From Actinoallomurus bryophytorum (GTDB taxonomy: Bacteria > Actinomycetota > Actinomycetes > Streptosporangiales > Streptosporangiaceae), in assembly GCF_006716425.1 (NCBI RefSeq), contig NZ_VFOZ01000001.1, positions 3,720,001-3,784,000 on the forward strand: a DNA stretch of 64,000 bases, given 5' to 3'. The position numbers and the translations under genes were made by a program. Of the stretch, positions 22,083-29,846 are shown piece after piece. The notes under the pieces are model-generated. The model saw only the letters and a program-made list of their open reading frames with translations. It did not search any database and was not told the origin of the DNA. Each line of letters begins with the position of its first letter. The stretch's first letter is position 1.

Positions 22083-23228
22083 TCATCGCCGGGCCTGGGC
22101 CCGGTAGCGGTCGAGGACGTCCTGGCGGAGCAGGGACCCGAAGCCCGCGGCCGCGATGCGCAGGCCGAGTTCGGACTCGGTCACACCGAGCGCGGCGGCG
22201 GTGTCGGGCAGGTTCCAGTCGCAGGCGGCGAGCCGGGTCAGGAGATGTCCTCGCCGGACCTGGTTCTCCGAAAGCCGGAACGTCTTGAGGTACGCGAGAC
22301 GGCCGGCCTCGTCGGTGATGAGTTCGCCGATGTGGTTCTCGCGCTGCCGCTCGAAGGGCGGCAGGAAGCGGGACAGCCGATACCGGCCCATCTGATGGAC
22401 CTGCTGGTAGGTGTAGTCCCCCTCCAGCAGCCCGCCCGCCATGGCCCGGTCATGGAAGGCCGCCCACGCGTCCTGCTGCGACCGGGCCTGTGCGCGCAGG
22501 TCCGCGAGCGATCGCACCGAGGTGTCCGCGATCCGGGCGCGGAAGTCGGTGACCGGCATGCTGAGCATGGCGTAGTGGTGGATCAGCTCGCCGTAGAGGT
22601 CGTGGACAAGGGTGGAGTGCAACGCGCGGTAGTCGCCGGGGTGCGGCACCACGAACGCGGCGGCGAGCGCGTCCGCGGCGTAGACGAGGACACCGCACTG
22701 ACCGGGAAGGATCTCGAAGACGCGCAGAGCGTCCGCCAGGCCCCTGACCGTGGCTCCCGTGTACGCCTCTTCGACACGGGGCGAGAGCCCGTGGTCGATG
22801 GCGCGGCGTGACCACTCCTCCCACGCGATCTCGGGCCCGCCGAAGTGCAGCGCCAGGTAACCCTCCAGCGCCAGGTGCAGAGGCATGAACCGCAGCCGGT
22901 TCTTGTCGACCCGGCGAGCCATCCGGCGGTGGAACCGCAGCGACATCCGGCGGGGCGCGGGGTCGCGGGCCGCGGCGCCCGACAGCTGGGTTCCGTACGC
23001 CGCGGCCGGGGTGCCGTCACCGGTCCAGGTCGCCACGAAGCCATGAGGGATGTAGGAGGAGTACGTGGTTCGCGCGTCCAGCTCGACGATGCCGAGGTCG
23101 GCCTCGTAGAGGCGGGCGTCGAGCCGCAGGTCCTCGATCGGCTCGTCACGGACCAGCGGGACGAGCCGTACACCGCCCCATGCCTGCGCCGGGCGGGAGG
23201 AGAGCCCGTTGAGAGTCAGGGCCGTCAT
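22083..23228 (-). CDS. ARPP-like protein paired with a vWA gene
   Basis: 381 residues; ATG 23228 overlaps the stop of the vWA gene (ATGA), so the two are co-translated. The N-terminus (RPAQAWGGVRLVPLVRDEPI) has the look of the ARPP families (ADP-ribosylglycohydrolase and rhodanese-phosphatase associated proteins) described in RNA-repair and conflict gene neighbourhoods; this match is from memory and moderate. The middle is all-alpha with repeated His/Tyr/Arg (MSLRFHRRMARRVDKNRLRF), and residues about 335-370 resemble a Fis-type helix-turn-helix (LTRLAACDWNLPDTAAALGV). No catalytic motif is evident. A scaffold or regulator for the vWA protein is the simplest guess. Confidence 0.6.
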   Translation of the reverse strand: MTALTLNGLSSRPAQAWGGVRLVPLVRDEPIEDLRLDARLYEADLGIVELDARTTYSSYIPHGFVATWTGDGTPAAAYGTQLSGAAARDPAPRRMSLRFHRRMARRVDKNRLRFMPLHLALEGYLALHFGGPEIAWEEWSRRAIDHGLSPRVEEAYTGATVRGLADALRVFEILPGQCGVLVYAADALAAAFVVPHPGDYRALHSTLVHDLYGELIHHYAMLSMPVTDFRARIADTSVRSLADLRAQARSQQDAWAAFHDRAMAGGLLEGDYTYQQVHQMGRYRLSRFLPPFERQRENHIGELITDEAGRLAYLKTFRLSENQVRRGHLLTRLAACDWNLPDTAAALGVTESELGLRIAAAGFGSLLRQDVLDRYRAQARR

Positions 23229-24724
23229 CCGAGGAAGCCCTCGACGCGCCGCGCCAGGTGGGCGCGCAGTTCGGCGATCCCGGTGCGGCCCTCGGCGAAC
23301 TGGGCCAGCTCCACCAGGGCGACCAAATCCTCGGCGTCGCGGATGCCCGCGGTCGGGACGGTGGGCGCCAGCCGCCGTACGTCGAAGTCGGCGGCGTCGT
23401 AGACCGGGTTGAGATGCACGATGCCGCAACCGTGGCCGGGGTCGAGGCGGGTACGCCAGATCCGGAGCACCTCTCCCGCCAGTCCTGGCGGGGCGTTGTC
23501 CCAGCCGTCGGAGACGATGACGAGGCGCTCGGGCCCGCGTTCGAGACCGTCGAGGATGCGTTCGCCGAGCGGTGTCGCGCCGTACGGATGCACCAGCAGC
23601 GCGTCCGAACGCCCCGACGACCACAGCGGCACGTAGTCACGCGCGAGTGCCGCAAGGAGGAAATGGCAGGCGAGCGCGACCGCGAGCGGACGGCGGCGCT
23701 TGTGCCCCGAGCCGTAGGAGGAGAAGCTGTCGTCGAGGACGGCGACCACTTTTCCCCACTGCCCGGCCTGCTCGCCCGCGGTCCGGCGTGCGGCCGCGCG
23801 CAGTGCCTCGGTCAGCTCGGCCCGCTGGCGCACCCGGTCGTCCAGGGAGAGGGCGAGCACGTACGACGCCAGCCGGGTGAGCGGCATCGCGCGGAGGTCG
23901 GCCCGTACCGAATCTGCCTCCAGGCCACGCGCCGACTCCTGCAGGCGCAGCCGTTCCAGGCGGGTGAGCCGCGGCGCGATGCGCTCCAGGAACACCGCGC
24001 GCGGGACGCCATGCTTGGCGGCGAAACCCTCCGCCACCGTGTACGGCAGTTCGTACAGCGCGGCCTGCTCGTAGTGAGCCCGCCGCCAGGCCTCCAGGAT
24101 CGGCGTCGCATAGGCGGCCCGCCGATTCGGGGCGAACAGAAACGTCCCCAGTTCTCTTTCCGGCCCACCGACTCCCGCTTCCCGGCCCAGTGTGAGATGG
24201 GCGTGGCGGGCCGCGACCTTGACCGCGCTGCGGTACTTCACGGCGTCGAAGGCGAGGTCGGGGCGGGCCGCCAGCCAGTCCCGCATGATCGCTCTGGTAC
24301 GCCGGTTGTTGACCTTGGCGCGACGCAGCTCGCGGAACAATCGGTAGACCCGCGGTGGCGGCAGCAGTGCGAGGCGCCGGGCGATCAGGCGCCCCTCGGT
24401 GTGGCGCTGCGCCGGATCCGCCTCCGCCGTCGTGACCAGCAGGTTCCGGGCGATGAGGACCGCGTTGTGGTCGTTGATGTCCAGGGAGAGCGTGGCCGCG
24501 TACAGGTCGCGATAGTTGCCGAGCAGGTAGCGATGGAGGAAGTCCAGGGAGAGGCTCTGCTCGCCGGCGCTGGAGTGGAACTCCCGCTGGCCGGTCGAGG
24601 TGATCGCCGCGTTGACGAACAGCAGGACGTCTTCGGCGGCGACCAGATCGGCGCTGGTCTCGATCGGTGCCTCCCGGTTGGCGCGGATGCCGACCGGGGA
24701 ATGAGAGCACGAACTGCGAATCAT
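23225..24724 (-). CDS. Helical-repeat plus vWA protein, TROVE/Ro60-like layout
   Basis: 499 residues from ATG 24724. Residues ~25-290 are all-alpha repeats (LHRYLLGNYRDLYAATLSLD, LFRELRRAKVNNRRTRAIMR); residues ~325-490 form a von Willebrand A domain with an intact MIDAS metal site: D331-x-S333-x-S335 (VVAVLDDSFSSYGSG) and a later acidic loop VIVSDGWDN near 405. Helical repeats followed by a MIDAS-type vWA is the plan of TROVE proteins (Ro60/Rsr), which bind misfolded or Y RNAs; sequence similarity to TROVE itself is weak, so I state only a layout match. Start uncertain: no ribosome site before 24724, and the frame continues to 24829. Confidence 0.62.
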   Translation of the reverse strand: MIRSSCSHSPVGIRANREAPIETSADLVAAEDVLLFVNAAITSTGQREFHSSAGEQSLSLDFLHRYLLGNYRDLYAATLSLDINDHNAVLIARNLLVTTAEADPAQRHTEGRLIARRLALLPPPRVYRLFRELRRAKVNNRRTRAIMRDWLAARPDLAFDAVKYRSAVKVAARHAHLTLGREAGVGGPERELGTFLFAPNRRAAYATPILEAWRRAHYEQAALYELPYTVAEGFAAKHGVPRAVFLERIAPRLTRLERLRLQESARGLEADSVRADLRAMPLTRLASYVLALSLDDRVRQRAELTEALRAAARRTAGEQAGQWGKVVAVLDDSFSSYGSGHKRRRPLAVALACHFLLAALARDYVPLWSSGRSDALLVHPYGATPLGERILDGLERGPERLVIVSDGWDNAPPGLAGEVLRIWRTRLDPGHGCGIVHLNPVYDAADFDVRRLAPTVPTAGIRDAEDLVALVELAQFAEGRTGIAELRAHLARRVEGFLG

Positions 24725-24838
24725 CGCTTCAGAGGCGGGTTCCGGAAGTCGCACCGAAGTCCCGCGGTCGGCTCCCGAACGGTAACACCGACCTATCGCC
24801 TTCTTCCGCCCCTTTTCCCGTCGCCGCACACCGCAGGC

Positions 24839-25702
24839 TCAGGGGCTTGACGAAAGCGGTGCCGGGCCGCCGTCGACCACGTCGGCGTTCAGGCGTTCGA
24901 AGGCCGCGACGCGGTGCTGGGACTCCTTGCCCCCGCGTTCGACGACTCCCAGTACCAACGTCTCGACCAGGGCGAACGCCGGCACCAGGGTGACGAACGG
25001 CGGTGGCCCCTCGACCGTGGTCGTCAGCAGGACCGTCGCCGAGGAGGCCAGCGGGCTCAGGTACGGGTCCGTGCACACGACCAGGGACGCGCCCTGGCCG
25101 GCGGCGGCGCGGCCGAAGGTGACCGTGTCGCGCTGGTAGCGGCGGTAGTCGAACGCCACCACGACCGTCGTCTCGTCCACGTCCAGCAGCGCGGCGGCCC
25201 GCGCTCCCGGGTCGTTCGGAACATGGCTCACCTGAGGGCGGAGCAGGCCGGCGAACGTGGCCAGGTGCGCGGCGAGCGTCCAGGAGAAGCGGCCGCCGGT
25301 GATCAGGATCCTGCGCTCGCGGTCGGCGAGCAGGTCCGCCGCCGCGGCCAGCTCGGACTGGTCCTGGGCGCGCAGGCTCTCCGTCAGCGCCGCGCCGAAC
25401 GAACGCGCCCGTACGGCCAGCGGCTCGCCTTCGGAGGGATAGTCCTCCAGCGGGCCCGCCGTACGGGCCGAGAGTTCGGCGCGCAGCACCTCCTGGATCT
25501 GTGGATAACCGCCGTAGCCGAGCTTGGTGACCAGCCTCAGCACAGTCGGCGGGCTGACGTTCGCCACCTCCGCCAGACGGACGATCGGCTGCAACCCGGC
25601 CGCCGGGTAGTCGCCCAGCAGTGCCTGCGCGACGCGCAGCTCCGCGGGCGTCAGCTCGCGCCGCCGTCGCCGGAGGACGTCCGCGACCGTACGGTCGGTC
25701 AC
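24839..25702 (-). CDS. MurR/RpiR-family transcriptional regulator
   Basis: 287 residues. N-terminal RpiR helix-turn-helix (residues 1-75: ELTPAELRVAQALLGDYPAA, IVRLAEVANVSPPTVLRLVT) and C-terminal SIS phosphosugar-type domain (about 110-250: RERRILITGGRFSWTLAAHL, VVVAFDYRRYQRDT). GTG 25702 lies five bases after the stop of the glutamine-synthetase-like gene, so it is the second gene of that operon. In this setting it probably senses a nitrogenous catabolite rather than a sugar phosphate. Contains a DnaA-box sequence at 25501-25509. Confidence 0.88.
   Translation of the reverse strand: MTDRTVADVLRRRRRELTPAELRVAQALLGDYPAAGLQPIVRLAEVANVSPPTVLRLVTKLGYGGYPQIQEVLRAELSARTAGPLEDYPSEGEPLAVRARSFGAALTESLRAQDQSELAAAADLLADRERRILITGGRFSWTLAAHLATFAGLLRPQVSHVPNDPGARAAALLDVDETTVVVAFDYRRYQRDTVTFGRAAAGQGASLVVCTDPYLSPLASSATVLLTTTVEGPPPFVTLVPAFALVETLVLGVVERGGKESQHRVAAFERLNADVVDGGPAPLSSSP
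25501..25509 (-). other. Single perfect DnaA box inside the RpiR gene
   Basis: TGTGGATAA is the inverse of the consensus TTATCCACA. An isolated box; no partner within 100 nt. Confidence 0.4.
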
Positions 25703-25706
25703 CGGC

Positions 25707-27062
25707 TCAGTGCTTCCAGCGGGTTCGCGCGGCGATCTCCTCGGGCTCCATGCCGTCGAACAGTGCGATCTCGCCCCGCCGTACGACACCGACCGTGTCG
25801 ACCAGGGCCTCGCCCAGCGCCTCCCTCAGCGCGGCGTCGGCCTCGAACGCCTCGACCGCGGCTCCCAGCGACGACGGCAACGGCGGGACACCGTCCAGCG
25901 ACACCGGGTCGACGTCCACCGGCTCGGGGAGCGTGCCGTGCTCGGCCAGGCCCGCGCGGCCCGCGGCGATGAGGGCGGCCACGGCGAGGTAGGGGTTCGC
26001 GGCGGCGTCGAAGCACTTGACCTCGAGGTTGGCCGCCTGGGCACGGTTGCCGGCCGAGCCGGTCACGAACCGCAGCGCCGCCTCGCGGTTCTCCAGTCCC
26101 CAGCAGGCGTACGCCCCGGCCCAGTGGGAGGGGACGAGCCGCAGGTAGCTGGCCACCGACGGGGCGCCGATCGCCAGCAGGGCCGGGAGCCGGGACAGGA
26201 TGCCCGCGGCGAACGCCTCGCCGGCCGGGGTGAGGCCATAGCGGCCCTCGCCGCCGGCCATGAGGTTCGCGTCGTCGCGCCACAGGCTCAGATGGACATG
26301 CGCGCCGTTGCCGACGCCGCCCGCCAGCACCTTCGGGGAGAACGTCGCCCGCAGCCCGTGGTTCAGGCTGACCGCCCGGATCGTCTCGCGTACCAGGACG
26401 AACGTGTCGGCGGCCGCCACCGGGTCCTCCGGCGCGACCGACACCTCGTACTGGCCCGCGGCGTACTCCGGATGGACCTGCTCCACCGCGACGCCGGCCA
26501 CCGCCAGGCCCTCGACCACGTCGCGCAGGTAGTCCGAGCGTTCGGTGAGCCGCGTCATGCCGTACGCGGGGCCGGCGCAGGCCGGGACGAAGTCATCGCC
26601 ACCACCCACCGAGACGGCCCACTCGACCTCGAACGCCGCACGGATCGACAGGCCCTCGGCGGCCAGCCGTCCCGCCTCGCGGCGGGCCAGGCCACGCGCG
26701 TCGATCGGGTGCGGCTCACCCTCCTGGTCGTAGCGGTCCGCCGGCGCCCAGGCCCAGCCGGGCAGCGCGGGCAGGACGACCAGCCGGTCCAGGTCGGGGT
26801 GCAGCCGCAGGTCACCGATGGGCCCGCCGGCGAAGCGGCCGCTCACGATCGAGTCGTCGAGCAGGAAGGCGTCGAAGACCGGCGACATGCCGATGCCCCA
26901 GGCGGCCGCGTGCTCCAGGCGCGCCAGCGGCACCGCCTTGACCCGGGTCACACCACTGGTGTCGACCCACGTGGCGGCGATCCCGGTCACGTCCTTGGCA
27001 TCGAGATCCCAGGTCGCCTGCCGTGCCGCCGCGGCCCGCCGCGCACGCTCTTGCTGATCCAT
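25707..27062 (-). CDS. Glutamine-synthetase-like gamma-glutamyl ligase (FluG/GlnA4 type)
   Basis: 451 residues. Has the glutamine synthetase fold (beta-grasp part with VDTSGVTRVKAVPL, catalytic barrel with FEVEWAV, NGAHVHLSLW and NREAALRFVTGSAGNRAQAA); metal-binding Glu and His residues and the GNGAHVH nucleotide motif are retained. Proteins this divergent join glutamate to ethanolamine, polyamines or other amines instead of ammonia. Beside an APC permease, a FluG-type amidohydrolase and an M20 amidohydrolase, a gamma-glutamylation route for using an external amine is likely. ATG 27062 has GAGGTGGG upstream; the upstream frame to 27203 is not coding. Divergent from the permease gene. Confidence 0.86.
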   Translation of the reverse strand: MDQQERARRAAAARQATWDLDAKDVTGIAATWVDTSGVTRVKAVPLARLEHAAAWGIGMSPVFDAFLLDDSIVSGRFAGGPIGDLRLHPDLDRLVVLPALPGWAWAPADRYDQEGEPHPIDARGLARREAGRLAAEGLSIRAAFEVEWAVSVGGGDDFVPACAGPAYGMTRLTERSDYLRDVVEGLAVAGVAVEQVHPEYAAGQYEVSVAPEDPVAAADTFVLVRETIRAVSLNHGLRATFSPKVLAGGVGNGAHVHLSLWRDDANLMAGGEGRYGLTPAGEAFAAGILSRLPALLAIGAPSVASYLRLVPSHWAGAYACWGLENREAALRFVTGSAGNRAQAANLEVKCFDAAANPYLAVAALIAAGRAGLAEHGTLPEPVDVDPVSLDGVPPLPSSLGAAVEAFEADAALREALGEALVDTVGVVRRGEIALFDGMEPEEIAARTRWKH

Positions 27063-27081
27063 CACGCCCACCTCAGCCCGG

Positions 27082-27124
27082 ATGAAATATGCGTTACACG
27101 AAAAGACGGGTCTTTCATATTCAT
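27082..27124. promoter_or_regulatory. AT-rich near-palindrome in the divergent amine-cluster promoter
   Basis: ATGAAATATG (27082-27091) and CATATTCAT (27116-27124) are inverse complements apart from one extra A. AAAGA-CGGG-TCTTT (27102-27115 region) lies between them. This is the only AT-rich stretch between the divergent glutamine-synthetase-like and permease genes and a natural site for the RpiR regulator. Confidence 0.45.
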
Positions 27125-27175
27125 TACGGAAGCCCCAAAATACGACCACACGACGATCGCGTCGAGAGGAGTGAC

Positions 27176-28675
27176 ATGCCGACTCCGACATCTTCCGGTC
27201 CACGGCTGAGCCGGACGCTGAGCGTCTGGCAGGCGGTCGGACTTTCGGTCGCGCTCATGGCCCCGAGCATGGCCGCCAACATCAATCCCCAGGGGACCGT
27301 CACCTCCGCCGGCCGTGCCGTACCGCTGGCGTTCCTCCTCGCCGGCGTGGCCGTCCTGCTGGTCGCCTACGGCTTCGTACGGCTCTGTCAGTACTACCAC
27401 CACGCCGGCTCGGTGTACGCGTTCGTCGGCGCGACGCTGGGCGCGCGTTCCGGTGTCGTCGCGGGCTGGGGTCTGCTCGGCACCTACATCTTCTACGGCG
27501 TCGTGACCTCCTCGGCGACCGGCATCTTCGGCACCGCGTTCCTCCAGGAGATCGGCGTGTGGCCGCACCCGCCGAGCTGGGCGCCGTTCATCCTGGTGGC
27601 GGTCGCCCTCGCGCTGGCCCTGGCGCTCACGATCTCCCCGGCCAAGCGCGGCACGACCATCCTGCTCAGCGTCGAGGGCGCCACCGTCGCGCTGATCCTC
27701 GTCGTCAGCGCCATCATCCTCGTACGCCTGGTCTCCGGCTCGGCGCCGGACGACCACGGCTTCACGCTCAGCGTGTTCGCCGTGCAGCCCGGCACGAGCA
27801 CGTCCGCGCTGTTCCTCGGCGTGGTCTTCGGCTTCCTGTCCTTCGCGGGCTTCGAGGCCGCGGCGACACTGGGCGAGGAGGCGGCCGAACCCCGGCGCGA
27901 CATCCCCCGGGCCATCCTCGGCACCGCGATCTTCGGCGGCGTGTACTTCACCGTGGTCACCGCGGTGGAGATGATGGGCTTCGGCGCGGACGCGAAGGGC
28001 GTCGCGGCGTTCGGGAAGTCCCCCTCGCTCCTCGGCGACCTCGGCAGCTCCTACGTCGGCTCCTGGGTCGGTCACATCATCACGCTCGGCGCCGCGATCA
28101 GTGCCTTCGGGTGCTGCCTGGCCTGCATGGTCGGCGCCTCACGGCTGCTGTTCGCGCTCTCGCGCGACACCTCCGGCGGGCGTGGGCCCGGCCGGGTCTC
28201 ACGCACCGGCACGCCCGCGATCGCCGCGGGCATCGTGGCGACGGGGATGGCGCTGATCATCGCGGTCTGCGTGGCCTTCTTCTCGGCCGAGGCCGAGGAC
28301 ACCTTCATCTGGTCCGGCACCATCGGCACCCTGATCCTCCTCGTCGCGTACGTGCTGACCACCCTCGGGGCCATCCGCCTGGTGTTCGTGCAGCGCAGGA
28401 TGCCCGTGCCCATGTGGCAGATCGTCATACCGCTGGCCGCCCTGCTGATCCTCGGCTACACCCTCTACCGCAACGTGATCCCCTATCCCTCCTCCGGGCC
28501 GCCGCGCTGGTTCCCGATCGTCTCGGGCGGCTGGCTGCTGATCGCCGTGGTCGCGGTGCTGGTCGCACCGGGTGTTTCCCGGCGGCTCGGCCGGGCACTG
28601 GCCGAGAACGAAGGCATCAGCCTGAGCGAGAACACCTCCGCCGGGCCGGTCGCCGCACCGGACACGAGCGGCTGA
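27176..28675 (+). CDS. APC-superfamily amino acid/amine permease
   Basis: 499 residues with 12-13 transmembrane helices. TM1 carries the broken-helix region typical of APC transporters (LSVWQAVGLSVALMAPSMAA), TM6 region reads FGFLSFAGFEAAATLGEEAA with the acidic residues of the family, followed by PRRDIPRAILGT. It should bring in an amino acid, ethanolamine or polyamine by proton symport. ATG 27176 follows GAGAGGAG. First gene of a rightward operon with the amidohydrolase and M20 genes, divergent from the ligase and RpiR genes, sharing the AT-rich intergenic site. Confidence 0.9.
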   Translation: MPTPTSSGPRLSRTLSVWQAVGLSVALMAPSMAANINPQGTVTSAGRAVPLAFLLAGVAVLLVAYGFVRLCQYYHHAGSVYAFVGATLGARSGVVAGWGLLGTYIFYGVVTSSATGIFGTAFLQEIGVWPHPPSWAPFILVAVALALALALTISPAKRGTTILLSVEGATVALILVVSAIILVRLVSGSAPDDHGFTLSVFAVQPGTSTSALFLGVVFGFLSFAGFEAAATLGEEAAEPRRDIPRAILGTAIFGGVYFTVVTAVEMMGFGADAKGVAAFGKSPSLLGDLGSSYVGSWVGHIITLGAAISAFGCCLACMVGASRLLFALSRDTSGGRGPGRVSRTGTPAIAAGIVATGMALIIAVCVAFFSAEAEDTFIWSGTIGTLILLVAYVLTTLGAIRLVFVQRRMPVPMWQIVIPLAALLILGYTLYRNVIPYPSSGPPRWFPIVSGGWLLIAVVAVLVAPGVSRRLGRALAENEGISLSENTSAGPVAAPDTSG

Positions 28676-28706
28676 GACATCCCCATACGGAAGGACGAAC
28701 GACCGA

Positions 28707-29846
28707 GTGCCCCCTCTCCTGCCCTGCGTCGAGACCCTCAGCCTCGTCGACCACCACTGCCACAGCGTGGTGGACGGCGATCTCGACCGGAGTGAGTTCG
28801 AGTCCCTGCTCACCGAGGCCGAGGCCCCCGGCCCGCTCGGCGGCACGCTCTTCGACTCGGCGATCGGTTTCGCCGTACGCCGCTGGTGTGCGCCGGTGCT
28901 CGACCTGCCGCCGCATGCCTCGCCCGAGGACTACCTGGCGCGGCGCGCCGACCTCGGCGCCGCCGAGGTCAACCGCCGGTTCCTCCAGGCGGCCGGTGCC
29001 GAGGCGCTCTGCCTCGACACCGGGTTCGCGCCCGGCGCGGTCCTACCGCTCGCCGAGATGGGCGCGCTCGCCGGCGCGACGGCGCACGAGATCGTACGGC
29101 TGGAGCAGGTCGCCGAAGAGGTGGCCGCGGTCGGGCCGGGCGCGGCCGGCTTCGCCGAGGCCTTCCGCGAACGACTGCGGGAGCGCACCGCCTCGGCCGT
29201 CGGGCTGAAGTCGATCGCCGCGTACCGGGTGGGGCTGGCGCTGCCCGGCGAGCGGCCGGGCGACGCCGAGGTCACGGCGGCGGCCGGCCGCTGGCTCGCC
29301 TCGATCGAGGCCGGCGCCGCCCCACGGCTCGCCGACCCGACGCTCCAGTCCTTCCTGGTCTGGTGCGGTGTCGACCGCGGGCTGCCGATCCAGTTCCACG
29401 TCGGGTACGGCGACGCCGACGTCGACCTGCACCGGTGCGACCCTCTGCTGCTGACCGACCTGATCCGCGCGGTCGAGCCGACCGGGACGCCGATCATGCT
29501 GCTGCACAACTATCCGTTCCACCGGCACGCCGGCTACCTGGCGCAGGTGTTCCCGCACGTCTTCGTGGACGTGGGGCTGGCCACCCACAACGTCGGGCAC
29601 CGGGCGCCGGCGCTGATCGCCGAGACGCTCGAGCTCGCCCCGTACGGCAAGTTCCTGTTCTCCTCCGACGCGTTCGGCCTGGCGGAGCTGTACCACCTCG
29701 GCTCCCTGCTGTTCCGCCAGGGCCTGTCGGACCACCTACGAACCGGTCTGGACGACGGGGTGTGGACCGAGGAGGACGCCGCCCGGATCGCGCGGCTGGC
29801 CGGGGGAGAGAACGCCCGCCGCGTCTACGGTCTGGAACAGCGCTGA
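28707..29846 (+). CDS. FluG-type amidohydrolase (metal-dependent hydrolase)
   Basis: 379 residues, amidohydrolase-2 barrel: metal-binding HHCHS at residues 13-17 (LVDHHCHSVV), IQFHVGYGD around 230, LLHNYPFHRHAGYLA around 265 and the final Asp in FLFSSDAFG. It resembles the N-terminal half of fungal FluG, in which an amidohydrolase of this type is fused to a glutamine-synthetase-like domain; here the two are separate genes of one locus. A gamma-glutamyl amide hydrolysis is a reasonable inference. GTG 28707 follows GGAAGGA at about 12 nt. The TGA shares its A with the next ATG. Confidence 0.85.
   Translation: MPPLLPCVETLSLVDHHCHSVVDGDLDRSEFESLLTEAEAPGPLGGTLFDSAIGFAVRRWCAPVLDLPPHASPEDYLARRADLGAAEVNRRFLQAAGAEALCLDTGFAPGAVLPLAEMGALAGATAHEIVRLEQVAEEVAAVGPGAAGFAEAFRERLRERTASAVGLKSIAAYRVGLALPGERPGDAEVTAAAGRWLASIEAGAAPRLADPTLQSFLVWCGVDRGLPIQFHVGYGDADVDLHRCDPLLLTDLIRAVEPTGTPIMLLHNYPFHRHAGYLAQVFPHVFVDVGLATHNVGHRAPALIAETLELAPYGKFLFSSDAFGLAELYHLGSLLFRQGLSDHLRTGLDDGVWTEEDAARIARLAGGENARRVYGLEQR

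Follow-up and report, generated by a model that had tools for sequence, protein, structure and literature searches.

Two genes, here called A and B, lie on the minus strand of the window, the 64,000-nucleotide stretch of the Actinoallomurus bryophytorum genome that was analysed, together with a conserved structured RNA and a promoter-like element (Table 1). Both open reading frames are present and overlap by 4 nt in a stop/start ATGA (23225 to 23228), and the two genes occur together in all 34 actinobacterial loci, in agreement with the initial annotation, which described a translationally coupled pair. Both genes appear to be under purifying selection, with dN/dS values of 0.16 to 0.39 for A and 0.08 to 0.55 for B (11 pairs each). 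Because of this conservation, chance or an annotation artefact is judged, from sequence comparison, to be excluded as the source of the pair and the RNA.

Table 1. Features of the A/B locus (positions in the window)
Feature	Position	Strand	Description
Gene A	23225..24724	minus	Up to 499 aa; presumed-helical N-terminal region and C-terminal MIDAS vWA, TROVE-like
Gene B	22083..23228	minus	381 aa; ARPP-2 domain and Fis-like C-terminal HTH region
Conserved structured RNA	24689..24772	minus	84 nt; 5' of A; from alignment, folding and covariance model
Extended -10-like promoter element TGTTACCGT	24779..24787	minus	Block aligned by eye in many actinobacterial loci

The span of 22083 to 24724 first assigned to the pair was correct for the open reading frames, with one correction that concerns the start of A: the ATG at 24724 sits within the conserved RNA hairpin. 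In 35 of the 36 RNA loci examined (50 are known), an in-frame ATG, GTG or TTG lies 3' of the RNA and ahead of the conserved TGQRE motif of A, and the start codon was mostly located 19 to 38 nt 3' of the RNA stem. In three loci (L010, L011 and L012), the sole candidate start is a GTG at +82 to +87, deep in the domain. The window has no in-frame ATG, GTG or TTG between the RNA and the TGQRE motif (24662 to 24724, minus strand). With an ATG inside the hairpin and no canonical start downstream of it, the start of A in the window is uncertain; it is probably 3' of the RNA, near 24664. In the window and the three loci mentioned above, A may start at ATC or CTG, or, in the window, at the ATG within the RNA.

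Protein B matched the ARPP-2 family (PF22549) with an E value of 2.1e-133 and 444 bits against a cut-off of 27, which confirms its proposed resemblance to ARPP proteins, and matched ARPP-1 weakly (E value, 0.0076). The AQ[ND]H and AC[CV]xQ motifs are kept in the ARPP partners of the phage, Alkaliphilus and clade-3 pairs described below, but they are absent from B. This includes the Cys-Gln motif taken here to hold the Cys and Gln that the authors intended as the active residues of ARPP-1-type proteins. A C-terminal HTH had also been assigned to B; a Fis-like HTH region was recognized there, but its HTH_8 match remained below the threshold (E value, 0.13).

A contig scan with B yielded 34 actinobacterial loci of the Streptosporangium, Nonomuraea and Actinomadura kind. 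At least part of A adjoined B in all of them, although A was partial or decayed in some, and in one locus (L042) both genes were reduced to fragments. In a plasmid scan, A and B both matched the same three Nostoc records, whose proteins show only 44 to 47% identity. Two of these three plasmids were typed as conjugative, two (L044 and L046) carry a XisH/XisI gene pair between A and B, and on the plasmid of Nostoc UHCC 0926 the coding sequence of the A homologue is divided between frames. In the phylum sample, ARPP-2 was above the cut-off in 2 of 296 genomes, and A was found in the same two. In the family sample, ARPP-2 was above the cut-off in 75 of 250 genomes, with at least part of A at 30 of the 30 ARPP-2 loci among the matches listed.

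Divergent pairs were also detected. The genome of an uncultured huge phage (LR756500.1; L076:9489-14537) encodes a 521-aa A homologue whose gene is followed, 8 nt further on, by one for an ARPP-1 protein (88.5 bits), and the neighbours of this vWA/ARPP-1 pair include ATP-grasp (R2K) and CYTH genes. Another divergent pair is located on the Alkaliphilus plasmid pB6464 (L081), where a TerD-family gene lies upstream of it (L081:7375-8142), which may point to a connection with Ter-type stress systems. Further divergent pairs were found in Nonomuraea (L082) and in three other actinobacterial loci (L120 to L122). Profile comparison joined the A clades, including the divergent ones, at 98.2 to 99.9% and the B clades at 97.8%, the B profile being built from trimmed proteins. 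Classical ARPP-1 genes were present in 13 of 149 genomes, and no A homologue was found near them in the 12 regions examined, some of which end at contig edges. According to the initial annotation, its reading would fail if the pair never co-occurred elsewhere; it does so in 34 of 34 actinobacterial loci, on three of three Nostoc plasmids and in the divergent versions.

The MIDAS pattern typical of vWA domains is DxSxS followed by T and D. Protein A has these residues at 331 to 335 (DxSxS), T384 and D406, so that the MIDAS vWA reported for it earlier is indeed present. In an alignment read by eye, D331, S335, T384 and D406 were invariant and S333 was found in at least 32 of the 34 A sequences. 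The NNRR and KYR stretches of the N-terminal region, which is presumed to be helical, were invariant across the 34 clade sequences. No family in Pfam, NCBIfam, PADLOC or PHROGs matched A above threshold. The TROVE model of Pfam (PF05731) gave no match to A at E values up to 1 and none in the window's genome, and TROVE queries in a tblastn search matched nothing beyond their own source loci.

Ro60 proteins consist of an N-terminal region followed by a MIDAS vWA. The pooled A profile (37 rows) matched 11 pooled TROVE proteins at 94% over columns 151 to 406, from the KYR segment into the vWA, whereas it matched seven divergent TROVE proteins at 72% and four canonical ones alone at 21%. Individual A clades matched the TROVE profile at 0.2 to 77%, and the window's clade alone at 3 to 5%. 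When the halves of the proteins were compared separately, the vWA halves of A and TROVE matched at 86% and the N-terminal halves at 6.6%, with the KYR segment as the best stretch of the latter. This segment scored 28.7; the highest of 60 shuffles reached 22.0, and the reversed comparisons gave 18.1 and 20.3. As a control, the vWA half of A was compared with the vWA of CoxE, which it matched at 93% (3 sequences from 4 loci), and with full-length TROVE, which it matched at 74%. The CoxE match spans only columns 322 to 475 of A and leaves out the N-terminal NNRR/KYR region. The Ro60/Rsr plan that had been proposed for A is supported in part, by the MIDAS vWA and the pooled profile, but not by the Pfam TROVE model, the comparison with canonical TROVE proteins or the slightly better match to CoxE. 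It is plausible from these comparisons that A is a Ro60-like protein, and this kinship is independently supported by the adjacent Y-like RNA.

In an alignment of 30 of the 36 upstream regions, the RNA block was far more conserved than its surroundings. The regions left out were L013, L021, L024, L030, L040 and L042; the covariance model later recovered the RNA in four of them, but not in L021 and L030. The fold of the RNA begins with an 8-bp stem and a 1-nt bulge of the 5' strand, continues through GGGA:UCCC and an internal loop to a 7-bp upper stem, and is capped by an inner hairpin whose loop has 7 nt. The bulge is nucleotide 9 of the stem strand, a C at position 24764 in the window. This nucleotide is C in 46 of 50 RNAs and U in 4 of 50, and these 4 most divergent RNAs have also lost two upper-stem pairs. 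The initial annotation had suggested a search for a Y-RNA-like transcript near the pair, and at the level of sequence the outcome is positive, in the form of a conserved folded RNA with a bulged C.

The fold is supported by covariation. In 27 sequences, RNAalifold found 8 of 22 pairs to be compensated when the structure was not imposed. In the MAFFT alignment of 27 sequences, which was not fitted to the structure, 96.1% of cells were paired, 8 pairs had changed on both sides (reached by 1 of 500 shuffles) and 32 cells were doubly changed (0 of 500 shuffles), while the count of pair types was not above that of the shuffles (194 of 500). In the model-fitted alignment of 50 RNAs, 98.4% of cells were paired, compared with 38 to 46% in slid controls, and 10 of 22 pairs had changed on both sides (5.0 in shuffles); none of the 500 shuffles came as high on any of the measures. 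The outer stem of the Nostoc RNA is altered on both sides with the pairing kept. Columns 55 to 59 can pair either with columns 44 to 47 (three pairs compensated) or with columns 65 to 68 (one compensated), and the two helices are mutually exclusive. These competing inner helices resemble a two-state RNA and would suit a switch.

With the window searched at the gathering threshold, no Rfam family was found for the RNA, and a 201-base stretch searched at E values up to 10 gave one chance match, on the opposite strand. A search of eight pair loci with Rfam detected nothing beyond tmRNA and a cobalamin riboswitch. Reverse-strand matches of the RNA model (17 to 28 bits, in the same places) were discarded, as they reflect the self-complementary stems.

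The extended -10 motif is TGnTAnnnT. In many actinobacterial loci the promoter-like block resembles this motif by eye; the Nonomuraea, Acrocarpospora, Microtetraspora and Nostoc loci differ at this block. The predicted transcription start, at about 24772, would coincide by eye with the first base of the RNA stem in many actinobacterial loci. In one locus (L045), a palindrome, CTCAGTATACTGAG, lies upstream of the RNA and is a possible operator.

The covariance model found the RNA in 35 of the 65 loci searched, namely in the window, in 31 of 34 actinobacterial loci and in all three Nostoc loci. Among the actinobacterial loci lacking it, L021 and L039 are cut by a contig edge, and the A match of L030 begins only at residue 137. 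The model gave no match at the divergent pairs L076, L081, L082 and L120 to L122. A stability scan upstream of four divergent pairs detected only terminator-like hairpins, in the phage and Alkaliphilus, and an exact-pattern search in viral contigs found no RNA.

In the family sample, the RNA was detected in 75 genomes with one match each (the same 250 genomes, as far as listed). The RNA and ARPP-2 were both present in 72 genomes, ARPP-2 only in 3, the RNA only in 3 and neither in 172. The two therefore coincide in 72 of the 78 genomes with either (Fisher P = 5e-55, calculated on related genomes that are not independent). Five of the six exceptions are remnants or lie at a contig edge: G345 is at a contig edge, G382 is truncated, G497 is truncated with a 24-bit stub of the RNA, and G363 and G479 are deleted remnants, while G527 has a 37-bit RNA match without the genes. 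G380, counted among the genomes with both, is itself a remnant in which the RNA and ARPP-2 are 0.7 kb apart. In the 14 genomes inspected by eye, the RNA and the ARPP-2 match share a strand, with the RNA about 1.4 to 1.6 kb upstream; in G518, the two are on separate short contigs. The covariance model was built from 27 sequences of the same lineages, and matches to close relatives are expected; the informative part of this co-inheritance is, as far as the genomes indicate, that the RNA is present almost only beside the pair.

The genes upstream of the pair in the window (24839 to 29846) encode an RpiR-type regulator, a glutamine-synthetase-like protein, an amino acid permease and an amidohydrolase, and they look like an ordinary cluster for nitrogen catabolism. 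Downstream of the pair is a gene for an ECF sigma factor. Under a loose rule of two shared genes, the flanks of 35 loci fell into ten groups, the largest being that of Actinomadura; L011 and L012 joined the window's group by common protein families, not by synteny. For 135 neighbours from 14 of 34 loci, a selection that took ORFs antisense to B in many loci, the Pfam scan showed no recurrent partner among the 25 of 132 families listed, and RtcB, ARG and MoxR ATPase were not among them. The PADLOC scan of the same neighbours showed no recurrent defence system among the 25 of 98 families listed; these were mostly generic kinases, with AriA in three members. In the four plasmid neighbourhoods viewed, the annotation shows neither RtcB nor ARG next to the pair. 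The window's genome has one copy of RtcB, 3.9 Mb from the pair, and three ARG matches, none of them near the pair.

The best explanation appears to be a three-part RNP operon, in which a Y-RNA-like RNA is combined with A as a Ro-like helical/vWA protein and with B, an ARPP-2 protein that ends in an HTH-like tail; we assign this explanation a probability of about 0.5. It is based on the RNA, whose sequence and structure are conserved, which has a bulged C and lies just 5' of A, and whose presence and loss follow those of the pair. The transcript would start at the first base of the stem, and its folded 5' segment would be released or protected as a small RNA. Protein A may bind the lower stem via its helical region, while the MIDAS of its vWA may hold a client, either an RNA 3' end or a protein. 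Protein B would be a stoichiometric partner that acts on or senses material captured by the RNP, and its tail would anchor it to nucleic acid. Most likely, the module would monitor or deal with damaged or foreign RNA, in lineages that often gain and lose it; a function in RNA repair or in immunity, close to the one first proposed for the pair, is hypothetical. Evidence weighed against the RNP operon is that the RNA is always located in the 5' leader of A, where a cis element would also be expected, and that the Pfam TROVE model misses A, canonical TROVE proteins match at 21%, the RNA model finds no match at the divergent pairs and four RNAs have a U bulge.

Somewhat more tentatively, the operon may represent an unrecognised class of Ro-like RNPs, a mobile operon with its own Y-like RNA, a Ro-fold protein beyond the reach of TROVE models and an ARPP protein, whose phage branch would have replaced or lost the RNA. 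If so, Ro/Y-RNA biology would extend past RNA repair operons to ARPP systems.

The main and a serious rival is that the RNA is a cis-acting leader, the 5' UTR of the A-B mRNA, which controls translation or decay, perhaps via autoregulation by A or B or via a ligand. This is possible, although we consider it less likely than the RNP operon. The RNA lies in sense shortly 5' of the start of A in 32 of 36 loci (unclear in the window, L010, L011 and L012), there is one match per genome, and the two alternative compensated pairings of columns 55 to 59 are apt for a switch. In contrast, conservation peaks in the stem, the bulge and GGGACT and not around the start codon, the stem with its bulged C corresponds to the site at which Ro60 recognises Y RNAs, and transcription is predicted to start at the stem. 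An RNA-protein addiction or phage-defence module following type III toxin-antitoxin logic, in which the RNA restrains a toxic protein, is unlikely. It would explain the patchy presence, with 75 of the 250 genomes of the family sample above the cut-off and ten kinds of flank in 35 loci under the loose rule, the carriage on Nostoc plasmids, two of three typed conjugative, and in a huge phage, and the frequent decay. However, profile scans of A and B found no nuclease or toxin family, the RNA is a single unit rather than a repeat array, and no recurrent defence system was among the 25 of 98 families listed for the 135 neighbours from 14 of 34 loci. A MoxR/CoxE-type chaperone system, with A as a peptide-binding co-chaperone and the RNA as incidental regulation, is very improbable: the vWA half of A matches CoxE (93%) slightly better than TROVE (74 to 86%), and vWA proteins accompany ARPP in ARG-centred systems (PMC9503650), but no MoxR ATPase was among the 25 of 132 families listed for the 135 neighbours and the CoxE match is confined to columns 322 to 475, outside the NNRR/KYR region.

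If the RNP operon is real, a mutation of the bulged C is predicted to abolish binding. The mode of action of bacterial Ro proteins and Y RNAs is a long-standing question that has been studied in very few species; according to a 2020 paper, function had been studied only in Deinococcus radiodurans (PMC7790460). Actinobacteria and Nostoc plasmids would offer a new model, a compact operon whose Y-like RNA is supported by covariation; it would link Ro biology to ARPP proteins, and the RNA would add a family missing from Rfam 15. Among the PubMed Central full-text matches listed, no paper on the A/B pair or the RNA was recognised.

ARG-centred systems contain ARPP proteins, and vWA genes can accompany them (PMC9503650). 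The pair described here shares with them the ARPP superfamily and the possible proximity of vWA genes, but its ARPP-2 lacks the AQ[ND]H and AC[CV]xQ motifs, and the contexts given in the available text of that study do not include a vWA/ARPP gene pair accompanied by an RNA. In the rsr-yrlBA-rtcBA RNA repair operon, a Ro-like protein and a small RNA are encoded in one operon (PMC7790460), an arrangement shared by the locus described here, beside whose A/B pair no RtcB or RtcA was seen, unlike in that operon (four plasmids and the families listed). Compared with Ro60/Rsr and Y RNAs in general, A escapes the TROVE model, the RNA has no Rfam family and lies in the 5' leader of A, and the partner is an ARPP-2 protein. 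What they have in common is an N-terminal region followed by a MIDAS vWA and a bulged-C stem-loop RNA encoded beside the protein gene. In human Y RNAs, Ro60 is bound primarily at the bulged cytosine C9, and bacterial Y RNAs retain this bulged cytosine (PMC4030889); the RNA here likewise has an 8-bp stem followed by a bulged C in 46 of 50 sequences, as at that site.
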